This document shows positions 2,961 to 24,715 of a stretch of 24,715 nt of DNA, piece by piece (position 1 is the first letter of the stretch; each line of letters begins with the position of its first letter). The position numbers and the translations under genes were made by a program. Source of the DNA: a virus. The stretch covers positions 1 to 24,715 of IMG/VR virus record IMGVR_UViG_3300021478_000106; one strand, given 5' to 3'. The notes below the pieces were generated by a model that did not search any database, had not been told where the DNA came from, and saw only the letters and a program-made list of their open reading frames with translations.

Positions 2961-5129
2961 ATGGATGAGGCGAAACGTGACAAAAATGATTTAGAGCGTA
3001 TTAAAACCAATGTTCGTCGTTCATATGATTACTTCAAGCCTAATTATGATCGTTTTAACGATTTCAGAAGGTTTGTATTTGAGTCTTCACTTACTAGTGA
3101 TGAAATCACATTATTATCAACTATTGGTAAGCCACAACTAGAATTTAATATTCTTGAGGCTTACATATCACGTCTATTAGGCGAATTCAGCAAGCAAGAA
3201 CCTGATATTGAAGTTAACGCTGATAATCCCGACAAAGCCGATCCTTTGATGATCCGCATCATTGAAATGCATCTTCGTCATACATTAAGCGATAGCAATA
3301 ATCAACATACACGTTATGAAGTCTACAAGGACGTGCTATCCGGTGGATTTAGTACGCTTAAAGTAGAAGTAGACTATCCAACACCTAAAGCAATGCATCA
3401 AGTTATTAGTATTGTAAGAGCATTTGATCCGACACTATGTGGATTTGATCAGTTAGCACGTGATTCCCATAAAGGTGATGGACGATTTTGCTTTGAGCTT
3501 TATCCTATGGCAAAAGAAGATTTTGAGTCCACTTATCCAGACATCCCAATAGAAAATTTAAACTTTAGACGTGATTTTGCAGGATTCAATTGGTCTTATC
3601 TTAACGATGCTACACCTATTATTATTGTTGCTGATTATTATGAAAAGAAAAAACGTGAAGTCGAATTAGTGCTTTTAGGGGATGGTGCCGTACTGGAGTA
3701 TAAAGATTACAAAAAAATGGTTAAGGAATGGGAAGATTTCACGCAACCTCCTGCAATTGTCGGAAAGCCAAGAAAAACGATGATTGAAGATATTTGGCGA
3801 TATCGCCTCATTGAAAATGCTATTATTGAAGAAAAAGAAACCGATTTTGAAATGTTGCCTTTGATCTATGTCGATGGCTCAAGTGTCATGATTAAGACAC
3901 CTAAGAACGGAAATGTAAGGCAATACACTCGTCCGTATGTTTATCATGCGAGAGGCGCGCAACGATTAAAGAACTATGCCGGTATTGCATGGGCAAATGA
4001 GATAGAAAATACTATTCAGCATAAATTCATGGTGGCAAAAGAAGCGTTGCCAAAAGAAGAAGAATTTATGCAAGCTTATAAAGATGTACAAAAGGCTAGT
4101 GTCGTTGTTTTTAATTCAGTACACGAATCAGACCCCACGATGCCTATTTCAAATCCTATTCGTGAAATACAACGTAATCCAATGCCGCCTGAAATATCCG
4201 GCGCATTTACGGGGGCTGATGCTCTTATTCAAAACGTATTAGGAAGTTATGATGCAAGTCTTGGAATTAATGATAATCAGTTATCAGGTGTTGCAATTGT
4301 TGAAGCGGCTTCACAGTCGAACGCTACGGCTATGCCATACATTGTCGGCTTCTTGCAAGGCTACCAACGCGCAGCTCAAGTCTATCTTAACCTTATGCCT
4401 AAATACTATGTCACGCCTAGAACGCTTCCTATTGTTGATCATGAGGGTCGTAAGGGTTATGTCAAGATAAACCAGGAGGAAGGATTAGACCTTGATTATG
4501 ACGCTAACGAATTTAATGTAACACTAAAAGCCGGTGCATCATTCCAGGTTCAGAAATCCCGAACCTTACAAATGGTTAAAGAAATATGCTCGATGTCGCC
4601 TCTGATGGCGCAGTTTATGGCTGAAAAGGGTCTTAACTTCATATTGGATAACATGGAAGGTCGTGGTATTGAACAGCTCAAACAATTGGTTGAGGGCTGG
4701 ATGAAGGAAATGCAGCAACAAAAACAAATGGCAATGCAAGCTCAACAAGCCGAAATACAAAATAATCCTGCGATGATTAAAGCGAAAACTGATGCGCAAA
4801 AAGTTCAGTTACAGGCTGCTAAACAAGAACAAGAATTTACAACAGACATGGCTAAAATGCAGCAAGATCAACAGAAACTTATTGCTGATGTGAAAATGTC
4901 TCAGGATGAAAGCCAAGTAAGATTGATAGAAGCTGAAACTGAACGTTTCTCTAAATCAATTGAATTAGCCATAGCGCATGAAGATATGTTACATAGACAC
5001 AAACATGCTGGTATTGATGCTGCATTGGAACACAAAGATATGAAACATCGTCATGGAAAAGAAATAGCAGAATTTCACCACATGAAGACAGAAGCGAATA
5101 AACCAAAACCGCAGGGAGCGCAAGCATGA
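2961..5129 (+). CDS. Portal protein (P22 gp1-like)
   Basis: This 722-residue protein is expected to form the dodecameric ring at one capsid vertex through which DNA enters and leaves. Length and architecture fit the long P22-type portal: an N-terminal helical region (DLERIKTNVRRSYDYFKPNY), a wing/stem core, and from about residue 580 a long Gln/Ala/Lys-rich helical C-terminus (MQQQKQMAMQAQQAE and onward) like the P22 portal barrel. It ends with His-rich helical segments. AAAGG lies nine bases before the ATG. It is directly downstream of the terminase genes, and the next small gene overlaps its stop as ATGA. No truncation seen. Confidence 0.92.
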   Translation: MDEAKRDKNDLERIKTNVRRSYDYFKPNYDRFNDFRRFVFESSLTSDEITLLSTIGKPQLEFNILEAYISRLLGEFSKQEPDIEVNADNPDKADPLMIRIIEMHLRHTLSDSNNQHTRYEVYKDVLSGGFSTLKVEVDYPTPKAMHQVISIVRAFDPTLCGFDQLARDSHKGDGRFCFELYPMAKEDFESTYPDIPIENLNFRRDFAGFNWSYLNDATPIIIVADYYEKKKREVELVLLGDGAVLEYKDYKKMVKEWEDFTQPPAIVGKPRKTMIEDIWRYRLIENAIIEEKETDFEMLPLIYVDGSSVMIKTPKNGNVRQYTRPYVYHARGAQRLKNYAGIAWANEIENTIQHKFMVAKEALPKEEEFMQAYKDVQKASVVVFNSVHESDPTMPISNPIREIQRNPMPPEISGAFTGADALIQNVLGSYDASLGINDNQLSGVAIVEAASQSNATAMPYIVGFLQGYQRAAQVYLNLMPKYYVTPRTLPIVDHEGRKGYVKINQEEGLDLDYDANEFNVTLKAGASFQVQKSRTLQMVKEICSMSPLMAQFMAEKGLNFILDNMEGRGIEQLKQLVEGWMKEMQQQKQMAMQAQQAEIQNNPAMIKAKTDAQKVQLQAAKQEQEFTTDMAKMQQDQQKLIADVKMSQDESQVRLIEAETERFSKSIELAIAHEDMLHRHKHAGIDAALEHKDMKHRHGKEIAEFHHMKTEANKPKPQGAQA

Positions 5130-9932: not shown

Positions 9933-10008
9933 AATCGTGTAGCTCAATTGGTAGAGCATCAGTTATTGATACTGAGTGTCATCGGTTCGAGTCCGATCAC
10001 AATTGCCA
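9933..10008 (+). tRNA. tRNA-Gln (anticodon UUG) with encoded CCA
   Basis: A full cloverleaf fits. Acceptor AATCGTG (9933-9939) pairs with CACAATT (9998-10004) except for C4-A69. The D arm is GCTC AATTGGTA GAGC. The anticodon stem TCAGT/ACTGA has loop TATTGAT (9964-9970), giving anticodon UUG. A 5-base variable loop and T arm ATCGG TTCGAGT CCGAT follow, then discriminator G and CCA. Standard tRNA-Gln(UUG) has loop TTTTGAT; here universal U33 is A. It would decode CAA, which is abundant in the Gln-rich structural genes of this window. Structure is certain; activity is not, because of A33 and the acceptor mismatch. Confidence 0.88.
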
Positions 10009-10155: not shown

Positions 10156-10358
10156 CTCTTTGGTTTTTTATTTAGCCTATACACAATTGCGCAAATGATA
10201 CTAACAAATCCGTAGACCATCATTGTCACAATAAATACAATAGCTATTAAGGGTAATTTATCAGTTGATATTACCCATGGTAAAACTAGTCCTGATAGGA
10301 TTAAAAATAAATTTACTCCTACCAGTCCTATAAAACATAATTTCATTGTGTCGCTCAT
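10134..10358 (-). CDS. Two-pass small membrane protein
   Basis: 74 residues with two clear hydrophobic helices (about 8-30 and 36-61) joined by a short loop, then a strongly basic tail (RLNKKPKRKKK). By the positive-inside rule the tail is cytoplasmic, giving an N-in/C-in hairpin. It overlaps the SPFH gene stop by one base (TAATG), so it is made with that protein and is a likely partner. The topology also fits class II holins, but gene context favours a membrane partner of the SPFH protein. Confidence 0.75.
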   Translation of the reverse strand: MSDTMKLCFIGLVGVNLFLILSGLVLPWVISTDKLPLIAIVFIVTMMVYGFVSIICAIVYRLNKKPKRKKKLKD

Positions 10359-11194
10359 TACTTACCTTGTACATTAACAAAAGGAATTGCATTACTGCCT
10401 GTAAATTTTGGAAGTTCGCCATTCCATTTTAGTATAGCTTGATATTGAACGAACTCAGGCGTCAAGCTTTCAGCAAGAATTTTATTTGCTTGTGCTTGTG
10501 ATTGAGCGTTAATAAGAACTTGTTGTCCGTGTGCTTGTGCTTCAACAATCGTTTTCTGTGCTTCAGCTCTAGCGGTAGCAACTTCATTTTCAACTTTCAT
10601 GGCATTTTGTGAAGCTTGGATTTTTGCGTTGATGGAATTAACAACTGAAGAAGGTAGATCAAAGGAACCAACAAGATATATCTTTTCAACTTCAATGCCA
10701 GTATTTGAAGCTTCAACTTTAACAATTTTATTAACATGTTCAATAAAAGATTCTTTTTGTGCACCATATATTTGTTCCACGGTCATGGTGCTTGCTACTT
10801 CATTCATAGCATCACGTACCATGTTATGTAAGAAAGTATTTGTTATTTCATCTATTCCAAGTCGGTACTTTTGAAATACTTTAACAACGTTGTCAGGCTG
10901 AATAGAGTAGGTGATTCCTGCCTCAGTTTTAATTGAGAGCCCTTCACTAGTTTGCATGGTAATACTTTGTTCGTCTTTCCATGAGTAGTTTTGCAAGAAG
11001 GTTGGAAACAAGTATAGTTCACTGTTCCATCCAGTATAGTAACGACCAACTCCAACGGATTGTTCTGCGACACCTTTATCACTCCCATATAGATTTACTA
11101 TAACACCGCGATAACCAGCGGGTACTTTGCTGCATGATGTTACATTCAAGCATATAGCTGTTAAAGCAAATCCTGTTACTAATATTTTCTTCAT
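10358..11194 (-). CDS. SPFH/prohibitin (band 7)-like lipoprotein
   Basis: 278 residues. The N-terminus MKKILVTGFALTAICLNVTS-C is a lipoprotein signal with lipobox V18-T19-S20-C21. Ser at +2 predicts outer-membrane sorting in Gram-negative hosts. Residues about 25-200 match the SPFH fold: VPAGYRGVIVNLYG, then VGVGRYYTGWN, then the long VRDAMNEVASTMTVEQIYG and IEVEKIYLVG segments. Residues about 205-245 form the Ala/Glu/Gln-rich helix typical of prohibitins and HflC/HflK (ENEVATARAEAQKTIVEAQA). SPFH proteins form ring- or cage-like membrane assemblies and can modulate FtsH-type proteases. The gene overlaps both neighbours, giving one leftward operon. A host-membrane or superinfection role is inferred. 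Confidence 0.88.
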   Translation of the reverse strand: MKKILVTGFALTAICLNVTSCSKVPAGYRGVIVNLYGSDKGVAEQSVGVGRYYTGWNSELYLFPTFLQNYSWKDEQSITMQTSEGLSIKTEAGITYSIQPDNVVKVFQKYRLGIDEITNTFLHNMVRDAMNEVASTMTVEQIYGAQKESFIEHVNKIVKVEASNTGIEVEKIYLVGSFDLPSSVVNSINAKIQASQNAMKVENEVATARAEAQKTIVEAQAHGQQVLINAQSQAQANKILAESLTPEFVQYQAILKWNGELPKFTGSNAIPFVNVQGK

Positions 11195-11391
11195 TCAGAT
11201 TCCTTCATATTATTTTTAAACCATTCGTCTGTTTTTAACAAATCATAGTAAACACGCGCTGATCCTTGAATTTTAATAAACCGAGGTTCTTGATGATGAT
11301 GTTGGCGTGCTTTGAACCACGAAACTGATAAACCATATCGTCTCGATGCTTCTTTTCTTGTTATGTAATCCTTTCCTAGAATATTAGGCAT
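11191..11391 (-). CDS. AlpA/excisionase-like winged helix DNA-binding protein
   Basis: 66 residues. Residues 9-45 read YITRKEASRRYGLSVSWFKA, then RFIKI and ARVYYDLLKTDEWF. This is the pattern of excisionase/AlpA-type helix-turn-helix proteins, with 'T-KEA' helix, turn, recognition helix and a wing carrying a Tyr/Arg pair before the 'D-WF' end. It is the first gene of the leftward cassette and overlaps the SPFH gene by ATGA, so it probably autoregulates. A palindrome covers its ribosome site (11393-11411). Confidence 0.8.
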   Translation of the reverse strand: MPNILGKDYITRKEASRRYGLSVSWFKARQHHHQEPRFIKIQGSARVYYDLLKTDEWFKNNMKESE

Positions 11392-11411: not shown

Positions 11412-11526
11412 GGTTATAAAAGTTTCATTGAGTTACAACAGGCTAACGAAGTCTATTGTAGTTTGCAATAGGTTACAGCGGGCGATAAATTGGAAACGTG
11501 GAGATTTACATGATGTAACGAACCAC
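11412..11526. other. Non-coding spacer with direct repeat and hairpin
   Basis: No gene seen. GTTACAACAGGC (11432-11443) and GTTACAGCGGGC (11472-11483) match at 10 of 12 bases and start 40 bp apart. Between them CTATTG (11453-11458) and CAATAG (11466-11471) form a 6-bp stem. Weak rightward promoter-like pairs occur (TTGCAA at 11463-11468, TAAATT at 11486-11491, 17-bp spacing), but none is strong. This is probably the control region between the leftward cassette and the rightward scaffold/coat operon. Confidence 0.4.
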
Positions 11527-11656
11527 CGAGACCTGTGCGTTATTCAGGGCATAACCGTCGTGGGGTATATAGCGAGTGATGCGGACACTTAAAAACACGC
11601 ACGAGACCTGTTCGATAGGCAGGGTATAACCGTTGCGGGGTTAATAGCTAAGGATA
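11527..11656 (+). repeat. Imperfect 55-nt tandem element, period 75 nt, candidate structured RNA
   Basis: Two copies (about 11527-11581 and 11602-11656) agree at about 42 of 55 bases by hand count. Both keep CGAGACCTGT, CAGGG-ATAACCGT, GGGGT and TAGC. Each can form CCTG...CAGG and CCG-N3-CGG/TGG stems; a C-to-U change in the second keeps pairing as G-U. Copy 2 also has TAACC...GGTTA. There is no open reading frame through both. The second copy ends just before the ribosome site of the scaffold gene. Confidence 0.55.
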
Positions 11657-11660
11657 GCAA

Positions 11661-12425
11661 ATGGAAACGGCTAATGGACAAGCCCAAGGTCAAGATACGT
11701 CTTTGACTGGTTTAACTTCGTCAGCGCCACCGGCGCAATCACAAACTGCGCCTGTACAATCGTCTGATGAAAGGGTTTTTAGGCAATCAGAAGTAAATGA
11801 AATCGTCAAGAAAGCGAAATATGGGGCTGTTGAGGACTACAAACGCGTAGCCACTGAACAACCCGACTATGCATCGAGAAAGTATGGTGAAAGTGGTATA
11901 TCCCCACAACAACATACCCAACCGCAAAGCATGGCGCCGGATGAGGGAACTTATCGAAAGATTGCTGCTCAAGAGGCACAACGCTTACGTGATGAATGGG
12001 TGCAGGAAGCACGTACCAAAGCCGAAGCGGACAGTGCGCGAGGGATCGTGCAGACCTTTTGGAACAAACTCGCTCCAGGACGGGAAAAGTATCAGGATTT
12101 TGACAAGGTAACGAGCGACATTGAATATGCTCAGTTTCCTAATGTGGTACAGCTACTCGCGCAGCATGCAGACAACGCGCATGACATATTGTACGCATTT
12201 GGGAATGATCGTCTGAAGATGTCTCAACTCGAATATCTTGCCTCAAAGTCACCAAGGGATGCGATTGTGCAGGTGCAGAGGTTATCTCAATCAATAAAAG
12301 ATAATGAAGCTACTAGCAAAATCAGAGTTCCAAATGAACCGTTGTCAAAACTGCGTCCTTCCAACCTTGGTACGGACAACGGTGTTATGACGGTAAAGGA
12401 CTATCGCGCAAGATACAGAGTCTAA
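11661..12425 (+). CDS. Scaffolding protein (P22 gp8 analogue)
   Basis: 254 residues, Gln/Ala/Ser-rich and partly disordered at the N-terminus (METANGQAQGQDTSLTGLTS), helical in the middle (EAQRLRDEWVQEARTKAEAD), with a compact C-terminus containing PLSKLRPSNLGTDNG and DYRARYRV. The position directly before coat, the composition and the basic C-terminal end are those of podoviral scaffold proteins, which bind coat through a short basic C-terminal helix-turn-helix. AAGGA is five bases upstream. Sequence evidence for the family is moderate; context is strong. Confidence 0.8.
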   Translation: METANGQAQGQDTSLTGLTSSAPPAQSQTAPVQSSDERVFRQSEVNEIVKKAKYGAVEDYKRVATEQPDYASRKYGESGISPQQHTQPQSMAPDEGTYRKIAAQEAQRLRDEWVQEARTKAEADSARGIVQTFWNKLAPGREKYQDFDKVTSDIEYAQFPNVVQLLAQHADNAHDILYAFGNDRLKMSQLEYLASKSPRDAIVQVQRLSQSIKDNEATSKIRVPNEPLSKLRPSNLGTDNGVMTVKDYRARYRV

Positions 12426-12475: not shown

Positions 12476-13792
12476 ATGGCTGTATTCCCGAATAATATTT
12501 TGCAACAAGTACAAACGTATCAAAGATCGTCCCTGGCTTTGTTGTTAAACTTGTGTTGCCATTTATCCACGGCTAACACCAAATTCAAAGATTTTGACAA
12601 AATTCAGGCAAATTTAGGGTCAACAGTGACCTTCGATTTACCCCCTCGTTTTACCACTACTGCCGGCTTAGTTGCGTCTTTTGAGCCAGCTGTTCAACGT
12701 GTATTGCAATTAGTAGCAGATCAAGCGAACAACACCTCATTCGCTGTTACCTCACAACAACGCATCTTCAACTTGGAAAAAGGTGAAGAAGATTATATGC
12801 GTGTGTTCGGTAAATCCGCTATTGCTGAACTCGCTAACTTAGTTGAAGGCAATGTTGCACTCAATTGGGATTCTGGCGTAGTGAGTCAATTAGATGGGAC
12901 GACCAATACTTATTCAGGCCCGTATCGATTTTTCGGTGACGGAAGCACAAGTATCAGTTCATATCAACAATTAGCTCAGGCCGTCATGTTCTTCAAGAAC
13001 TATGGCGCTGTGGCTGAAGGAATGAAGATTTACTTACCTGATTCGATCATCCCTGCGATTGTTGGTAATGGATTGAATCAATTTGTTCCAAATCGTAACG
13101 ACGATATAGCAATGTCGTGGGAAGTGGGCGATTTTGGTACACCTCTAGTCAAATACTATCAGTCAAACTTGATGCCAATCCATGTGTCTGGTAATAGCGG
13201 TGTTGCTGGTAATACTTTTACAGTAGTTAGTACTAATGATCCAACAGGTCAAAATGTTACTCAAATTACTGTAACCACCAATGGGACATCAACTGATGCT
13301 AATGCAGTATTTGCAGGTGATTTGTTCCAATTTAAAGATGGTGTCTCAGGTCAACCGAATATGCGTTATTTGACCTTCATCGGACATTTCCCATCCGCAA
13401 ATCCGGTTCAATTCAGAGCAATCGCAAATGCAGGCTCTACCAGTGGCACTATTACCTTAAGTATTACTCCAGCTCTCAATTGGGCAGGTGGGGCAAACCA
13501 AAACCTCAATAATGCTATTGCGGCTGGTATGCAAATACTTACTTTCCCATCTCACCGTTGTGGAGGTATTTTAGGTGGGGAAGCTTTATTCCTTGCAATG
13601 CCTCAATTGCCAGAACAAAGCCCATATGACACAGCAAATGAATATGATCCAGAAACAGCGGCATCATTACGTTTGACCTATGGTTCTTTATTCGGACAAA
13701 ACCAAACAGGCATGATTTACGATGAAGTTCACGGCTCAGTCATTGTGCCTGAATATTCCATGCGTATGTTAATACCATTGTCTCAAGGCTAA
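12476..13792 (+). CDS. Major capsid (coat) protein, P22 gp5-like
   Basis: 438 residues from the ATG at 12476, with GGAG nine bases upstream; the in-frame codon at 12458 is rejected as it precedes the ribosome site. The N-terminus (MAVFPNNILQQVQTYQRSS) is followed by a long helix. The middle (about residues 185-310) holds a beta-rich insertion with GNTFTVVSTND and TITLSITPAL, comparable to the P22 I-domain region. The C-terminus has GGEALFLAMPQLPEQSPYDT and RLTYGSLFGQNQTG. Order after scaffold and length agree with an HK97-fold coat protein. Assignment rests mostly on position, size and overall pattern. Confidence 0.85.
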   Translation: MAVFPNNILQQVQTYQRSSLALLLNLCCHLSTANTKFKDFDKIQANLGSTVTFDLPPRFTTTAGLVASFEPAVQRVLQLVADQANNTSFAVTSQQRIFNLEKGEEDYMRVFGKSAIAELANLVEGNVALNWDSGVVSQLDGTTNTYSGPYRFFGDGSTSISSYQQLAQAVMFFKNYGAVAEGMKIYLPDSIIPAIVGNGLNQFVPNRNDDIAMSWEVGDFGTPLVKYYQSNLMPIHVSGNSGVAGNTFTVVSTNDPTGQNVTQITVTTNGTSTDANAVFAGDLFQFKDGVSGQPNMRYLTFIGHFPSANPVQFRAIANAGSTSGTITLSITPALNWAGGANQNLNNAIAAGMQILTFPSHRCGGILGGEALFLAMPQLPEQSPYDTANEYDPETAASLRLTYGSLFGQNQTGMIYDEVHGSVIVPEYSMRMLIPLSQG

Positions 13793-24163: not shown

Positions 24164-24715
24164 TTAAACAATTATATGTTTCCAATTTTGATTATTTTTT
24201 ATGTATAAAATTTGTCTTTTCCCTATATTAAACATTTTTGCTAAATCAGATACTTTTTCTGTTTTTAAAAGATTTTTTATCTTTGTTACATCTTCTTCTG
24301 TCAATTTAGCTTTAGGAGAACTTGAACCTTTGACTGGATTTTTTCTTCCTTTTTTAATCATATCTTTAACATTATCATGATTAGTTCCAAGGAATAAATG
24401 ATCGGGATTAACGCAATTTCTTATGTCACATTTATGACAAACAAACATATTTTTTGGGATTTCGCCATAATTTAATTGCCAAGAATATCTGTGAGCAAGA
24501 ATAATTTTCCCATTAACATTTAATGCTCCGTATCCTTTTTCTCCAATGGCTTTTATCCATAACCAACACCCATTTATTTTTTGTTCTTTTTCTATTGAGT
24601 TAAAAAATCTTTCTTCTTTTTTCCCATATCTACATTCCCAAGAACAATATTTTCCAAAACCTTTTTTTATAAGATATGGTTTAACTTTAAATTCATATTT
24701 ACCACTCTTTGTGTG
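24164..24715 (-). CDS. HNH endonuclease with C-terminal HTH, partial
   Basis: A leftward frame is open from the window edge to the stop at 24164: 183 residues with the start outside. An N-terminal cysteine pair lies in YCSWECRYGKKEE. The HNH core reads GCWLWIKAIGEKGYGALNVN, AHRYSWQLNYGEIPKN and CHKCDIRNCVNPDHLFLGT: the HR-Y-L-GEIP helix, the CDxxxCVNPDHL metal site and the following DNVKDM-KKGR motif. A C-terminal helix-turn-helix (KLTEEDVTKIKNLLKTEKVS, LAKMFNIG) may give site preference. This is a free-standing homing-type nuclease next to the fibre gene; no intron boundaries are visible. The internal ATG at 24448 would remove part of the HNH fold and is not the real start. Confidence 0.93.
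   Translation of the reverse strand, partial: HTKSGKYEFKVKPYLIKKGFGKYCSWECRYGKKEERFFNSIEKEQKINGCWLWIKAIGEKGYGALNVNGKIILAHRYSWQLNYGEIPKNMFVCHKCDIRNCVNPDHLFLGTNHDNVKDMIKKGRKNPVKGSSSPKAKLTEEDVTKIKNLLKTEKVSDLAKMFNIGKRQILYIKNNQNWKHIIV

Follow-up and report, generated by a model that had tools for sequence, protein, structure and literature searches.

A direct repeat in the leader of the predicted scaffold–coat mRNA of an uncultivated phage is read here as a tandem cis-regulatory RNA, a translational operator whose ligand is most likely a head-assembly protein; we put the probability of this reading at roughly 60%. That the repeat is a structured RNA is strongly supported. The evidence for the RNA and for where it lies is good, whereas its ligand is a matter of inference. 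The element probably controls the amount of scaffold and coat protein made, and with it a large group of uncultivated phages gains a well-supported family of RNAs for which Rfam 15 has no entry.

The repeat and its surroundings

The repeat lies near the middle of the window, by which is meant the whole stretch of viral DNA analysed (24,715 nucleotides). Its two members, at positions 11527–11580 and 11602–11655, are 54 nt long, 78% identical and spaced at 75 nt, which confirms the duplication reported in an earlier sequence-only reading; all five of the sequence blocks quoted there are present. The location given in that reading also stands, but not its exact bounds, as the modelled element starts 2 nt further 5'. 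A covariance model (CM) built from relatives matches the 24.7 kb window at these two places only, scoring 62.0 and 60.8 bits (E about 1e-16), and a degenerate consensus of the element occurs once in the window, where shuffled sequences are expected to give none. The features discussed below are as follows (PK1, P1, S1 and S2 are helices described in the next section).

11463–11491, + strand: sigma-70-like promoter, TTGCAA-17-TAAATT, probable start of the scaffold–coat transcript
11525–11578, + strand: copy 1 (CM 60.8 bits); PK1 11527–11528/11538–11539, P1 11532–11535/11545–11548
Copy 1, PK2 part, + strand: S1 11555–11556/11563–11564, S2 11559–11561/11572–11574 (pairs counted on alignment A2)
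11600–11653, + strand: copy 2 (CM 62.0 bits); PK1 11602–11603/11613–11614, P1 11607–11611/11619–11623
Copy 2, PK2 part, + strand: S1 11630–11631/11638–11639, S2 11635–11636/11647–11648 (pairs counted on A2; the third S2 pair is U-U)
11650–11654, + strand: Shine-Dalgarno sequence AAGGA, directly 3' of the last S2 strand of copy 2, identified from the sequence
11661–12425, + strand: scaffolding protein gene with a predicted P22-like fold (phrog_8865 and structural matches)
12482–13792, + strand: major coat protein gene, next in the operon (profile matches)

The two copies occupy the non-coding gap between a small divergent gene (11191–11391, − strand) and the scaffold gene (11661–12425). No open reading frame of at least 60 aa spans both copies, the longest overlapping one being a 54-codon frame starting with TTG, and the region is non-coding, as had been proposed. 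A broken protein-coding gene is disfavoured: beyond the lack of such a frame, the lengths of the indels that separate relatives are not divisible by three (the copies are spaced at 47–126 nt).

The assignment of the downstream gene to a P22-like scaffold rests on two kinds of comparison. The family phrog_8865, annotated as "head scaffolding protein", was matched by 22 of 32 homologues of the downstream protein (best E 7.5e-12), and the four best structural matches of the predicted model (mean pLDDT 71) were all P22 scaffold chains (Z 8.0, 6.7, 6.1 and 6.0, the next match having a Z of 4.8). Support for this prediction is nevertheless only moderate, because the Foldseek E value is 0.6. The profile of the coat protein gives a weak match to the P22 gene 5 protein (E 0.02–0.03), and 5 of 16 coat homologues match the phrog_283 major head protein (best E 1.1e-10). 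The predicted model of the coat protein was unusable (mean pLDDT 28.8).

Fold of each unit and covariation among relatives

Each copy consists of two consecutive H-type pseudoknots, PK1 followed by PK2, a fold that was read off sequence variants and then tested on alignments not fitted to it. In PK1, the loop of a 4–5 bp hairpin (P1) pairs with the nucleotides immediately 5' of the hairpin, whereas PK2 is a compact 2+3 bp pseudoknot (S1 and S2). The small stems suggested for the repeat by the sequence-only reading prove to be a pair of pseudoknots in each copy. Minimum-energy folding of the window copies gave z values between −0.74 and 0.80, none of them significant, a result explained by pseudoknots making up most of the structure.

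Alignment A2 contains 76 distinct copies aligned with MAFFT on sequence alone, with no structure input. Its helix columns form 12 pairs (PK1 3–4/14–15, P1 8–12/22–26, S1 39–40/47–48, S2 43–45/60–62), at which 93.5% of cells hold standard pairs, as opposed to 73.6 ± 0.8% after shuffling, with a covariation score of 0.606 versus 0.229; pairing falls to 36–47% if the partner is shifted by 1–3 columns. Double-sided changes are common: one P1 pair changes from CG to UA in 30 sequences, S1 from CG to GC in 22, S2 pairs in 17–29, and PK1 in 12, from CG to either GC or AU. At the two ends of P1, the outermost pair (8–26) displays no covariation and the innermost (12–22) is often unpaired. PK1 extends to three or four pairs in some copies (e.g. 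CAGU/ACUG in L051, CUGU/ACAG in L052 and AUGU/ACAU in L088).

An all-against-all covariation analysis of 1,431 column pairs was performed with a G-test and APC, against a null in which substitutions were re-scattered on a FastTree tree (60 sets); this is our own R-scape-style implementation, with its own null model, and not R-scape itself. Nine proposed pairs took ranks 1–9, seven of them with E<0.05 and the other two with E values of 0.33 and 0.75. RNAalifold, which cannot represent pseudoknots, independently recovered S1 in full and three pairs of P1. A second, more distant set (A5; 35 distinct rows) was not used to define the structure and was aligned with a model containing P1 and S1 but neither PK1 nor S2; 95.4% of its cells were paired, with 98.5% for PK1 and 96.2% for S2, although this set still shares ancestry with the first. 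Covariation in homologous leaders, which had been named beforehand as the evidence that would support a structured RNA, is therefore present and strong.

The unpaired positions are also conserved. A7 (5' of P1), and A38, U42 and G49 in PK2 (alignment numbering), are unpaired and invariant in the 76 copies, in which several further unpaired bases are nearly invariant. The pairing bears directly on the possibility that the repeat is a DNA-level element, a packaging site or a set of origin repeats that only seems to be structured. Direct repeats in a non-coding gap would suit such an element, and packaging sites can be found among head genes, but the pseudoknot pairs covary, which is not required of a duplex DNA site, and the single orientation and fixed spacing of the element relative to the scaffold gene and its start codon (see below) also argue against it. 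This explanation is disfavoured and hardly credible.

Some copies depart from the common form. In one clade, the upstream copies have an extra hairpin between P1 and PK2 (L182:4973–5049, L187:3962–4034, L191:3772–3845, L185:1801–1979), the sequence of which differs with the pairing kept. In L153 (529–566) and the upstream copy of L195, a variant PK2 (ACGGAGCUAUCCGG / ACCGAGCUAUCGGG) is found, in which a longer plain stem replaces the two-pair S1.

Association with the scaffold gene and its start codon

A coat-protein scan of IMG/VR provided 80 loci; for most of these in which leader sequence was available, an HMM made from the two window copies alone gave matches just 5' of the scaffold gene. 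Iteration of this HMM yielded 258 matches (146 distinct), and no fewer than a hundred distinct uncultivated phages share the shape of the element but not its letters. Genomic context was assessed with two degenerate patterns, making no reference to genes, that were run over 2.9 million viral contigs; a first, looser degenerate pattern, in which true relatives were mixed with apparent chance matches, was dropped. The first pattern scan returned 67 stretches. Checks were made on those that the coat search had not supplied, and a scaffold homologue lay downstream in all but one, in which the sequence ends 37 nt past the element. The second returned 44 stretches, and all 13 newly fetched loci had a scaffold homologue downstream. 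In the loci checked from both scans, the end-clipped locus excepted, the element was found only 5' of scaffold genes, and its orientation relative to them is the same throughout. The upstream neighbour of the leader varies in identity and strand; given the constant presence of a scaffold homologue downstream, the element therefore travels with the scaffold gene. The tandem arrangement also occurs in phages with a coat protein about 67–73% identical to that of the clade of the window. No host could be assigned: an INPHARED search with the MCP and scaffold found no relative, and all that the genome collection yielded was four MAG contigs whose host labels disagreed.

Two copies are the rule. At the threshold used, 87 of 101 distinct leaders had two copies, 12 had one and two had three, some of the one- and three-copy leaders reflecting degenerate or split matches; these counts were not taken from the hairpin descriptor, which missed many second copies. 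The spacing between copies is variable (47–126 nt), but the distance from the end of the last S2 strand to the start codon is not: it is 10–18 nt in 96 leaders (median 12, interquartile range 11.75–13), and a Shine-Dalgarno 5-mer begins 0–4 nt past the last S2 in 90 of these. The nearest in-frame ATG within 30 nt was taken as the start codon where possible, a choice that limits the upper tail of the distribution but cannot create so narrow a peak. Such a tightly fixed distance points to translation initiation. A packaging RNA, one of the roles considered earlier for the repeat, is not supported, because of the tie between the element and the scaffold start codon; a leader RNA or paired protein-binding sites controlling scaffold and coat levels agree both with where the element lies and with its fixed distance from the ribosome site, in the absence of any binding data.

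Pairing is better within copies than across them, with 340/340 versus 230/340 for S1 and 491/510 versus 377/510 for S2; because the parser selected whichever reading paired best, it gave the within-copy figures for both helices some advantage. S1 is GC/GC in copy 1 and CC/GG in copy 2 in 46 of 85 phages; by inference, different S1 letters in the two copies would prevent mispairing between them.

A promoter is usually found shortly upstream of the leader. The regions 5' of copy 1 in 87 relatives have a promoter score about 7 SE above that of Markov shuffles, with a median of 43 nt separating the end of the −10 element from copy 1. TTGCAA-17-TAAATT, the sequence found in the window, is also present in L043, L049, L072, L090 and L137, although the match is only moderate and a stricter consensus promoter scan of the window did not list positions 11463–11491. 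A small inverted repeat lies between the −10 element and copy 1 in L181–L190 (e.g. CCGAUCUAUCGG in L182), with paired changes among relatives (CCCAUCUAUGGG, CCGAUCUAUCGG, CCCAUCAAUGGG). The divergent gene at 11191–11391 (− strand) in the window encodes a 66-aa protein with an excisionase-like HTH (phrog_66, E 8.5e-05), and a similar small HTH protein with a GxSxxW motif is encoded divergently, 5' of the leader, in many relatives (motif in 32 of 87). This protein could control the scaffold promoter.

The combination of structure, a length of about 50 nt and a promoter-proximal position at the start of a late operon is also what might be expected of an RNA antiterminator similar to HK022 put, in which the nascent leader would modify RNA polymerase, leading to read-through of the late operon. 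Put, too, is a structured, promoter-proximal RNA with two related sites, but the transcripts in which it acts on RNA polymerase are early ones, and its two copies are on different transcripts. The put RNAs, which work near promoters, consist of two stem-loops in about 70 nt, with no pseudoknot mentioned (PMC9378689), whereas the hairpin here lies within two pseudoknots. Antitermination would not need a fixed distance to the start codon, and no terminator-like site was found on the + strand between the leader and the coat gene; we regard this explanation as very improbable.

Possible function and comparison with known systems

Nothing beyond the RNA itself has been demonstrated, and each step of the translational operator model is inferred. 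The leader would act at translation initiation. A PK2 of 2+3 pairs is unlikely to be stable alone, yet its unpaired bases are invariant, which suggests that the fold is completed by a ligand; PK2 would be stabilised by this ligand on A7, A38, U42 and G49, and the presence of two units would permit cooperative binding. In the downstream copy, the 3' strand of PK2 runs up to the Shine-Dalgarno sequence, such that the stabilised structure might collide with the 30S subunit and block it. The ligand may most plausibly be free scaffold, or coat, resulting in feedback by which scaffold synthesis would be limited to the rate of procapsid consumption. Feedback by one of these proteins is the leading idea because the element was found with no gene other than that for scaffold, and because the P22 scaffold gene is known to be autoregulated. 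A more specific version, in which scaffold (or coat) not yet assembled occupies both units, stopping scaffold–coat translation until growing procapsids release the block by consuming it, remains tentative, its chances falling a little short of even; such an assembly-state sensor, if real, would establish a new class of RNA operator in phages. In any case, the element offers a concrete RNA for testing how phages match scaffold and coat production to head assembly.

Several points weigh against an operator. There are no transcript, binding or reporter data, and nothing computed shows scaffold or coat to bind RNA. A positive role, in mRNA stability or enhanced translation, would fit the same position: the pseudoknots might guard the 5' end of an abundant late mRNA from decay or keep the ribosome site open, with no dedicated regulator. 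Late expression of scaffold and coat is high, and the promoter-proximal location and fixed distance to the Shine-Dalgarno sequence and start codon are as such a leader would require. A plain hairpin would suffice for this purpose, however; the near-invariant unpaired bases and two similar copies suggest specific recognition, and the PK2 stems seem, by inference, too short for unaided stability. A purely positive leader is thus unlikely, though it is the alternative to be taken most seriously.

P22 provides both an analogy and a difficulty. Autoregulation of its scaffold gene, known here from the title of Wyckoff and Casjens (1985) as cited in PMC5744158, concerns a target that, as here, encodes a P22-like scaffold and is followed by a coat gene. 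P22 gene 8, by contrast, starts 13 nt after the portal gene, and a search of P22 positions 3500–4200 with the element model gave a best score of only 3.6 bits (E 0.76), so the element is absent at gene 8. The phage in which scaffold autoregulation is documented thus lacks the element, which counts against an operator and makes the analogy one of function, not of descent.

The closest structural parallel concerns phage T4, the gp32 of which represses its own translation through an upstream pseudoknot, a single structure lying some 67 nt upstream, where binding along a stretch rich in A and U is nucleated (PMC3014915). In both cases an H-type pseudoknot lies 5' of the ribosome site in a phage mRNA leader, a likeness resting here on the covariation of PK1 and PK2 and on position. 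The leader described here differs in having two pseudoknots per unit and two units, ending at the Shine-Dalgarno sequence, and in its target, a scaffold gene with a ligand that is only inferred rather than the gene for a single-stranded DNA-binding protein. A phage mRNA pseudoknot at the ribosome site is a rare case, the T4 gene 32 pseudoknot having been described in a 2010 review as possibly the only viral example in translational autoregulation (PMC3014915).

Outside phages, S15 recognises a pseudoknot at the ribosome site of the E. coli rpsO mRNA and controls its own synthesis (PMC4684408). This precedent, together with the compact pseudoknots, conserved loops and tandem arrangement at the ribosome site, would be compatible with an operator or riboswitch for a ligand unrelated to the head, such as a small molecule or a different protein, either from the host (e.g. 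a ribosomal one) or from the phage itself. The rpsO element belongs to a bacterial gene and is a single pseudoknot of different sequence, and the exclusive association with the scaffold gene, despite the changing upstream neighbour, favours a ligand tied to head assembly; a non-head ligand therefore appears distinctly improbable. No Rfam 15 family matched the element at its gathering score, a tRNA being the sole match in the whole window, and the leaders of the window and of two divergent relatives, L100 and L182, gave only weak, unrelated matches at a relaxed E-value. No description of the element was found in the open-access literature, although an existing one cannot be excluded.

Three other features of the window were observed. 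A tRNA-Gln gene (anticodon TTG; 9933–10008, + strand) lies between the portal region and the head genes. A Band 7/SPFH-domain lipoprotein (PF01145, E 4.1e-28; phrog_200) is encoded on the opposite strand within the head-gene region (10358–11194, − strand), and an open frame at the end of the window (24164–24715, − strand) resembles an HNH homing endonuclease (CHKCDIRNCVNPDHLFLGTNHDN), by eye only.
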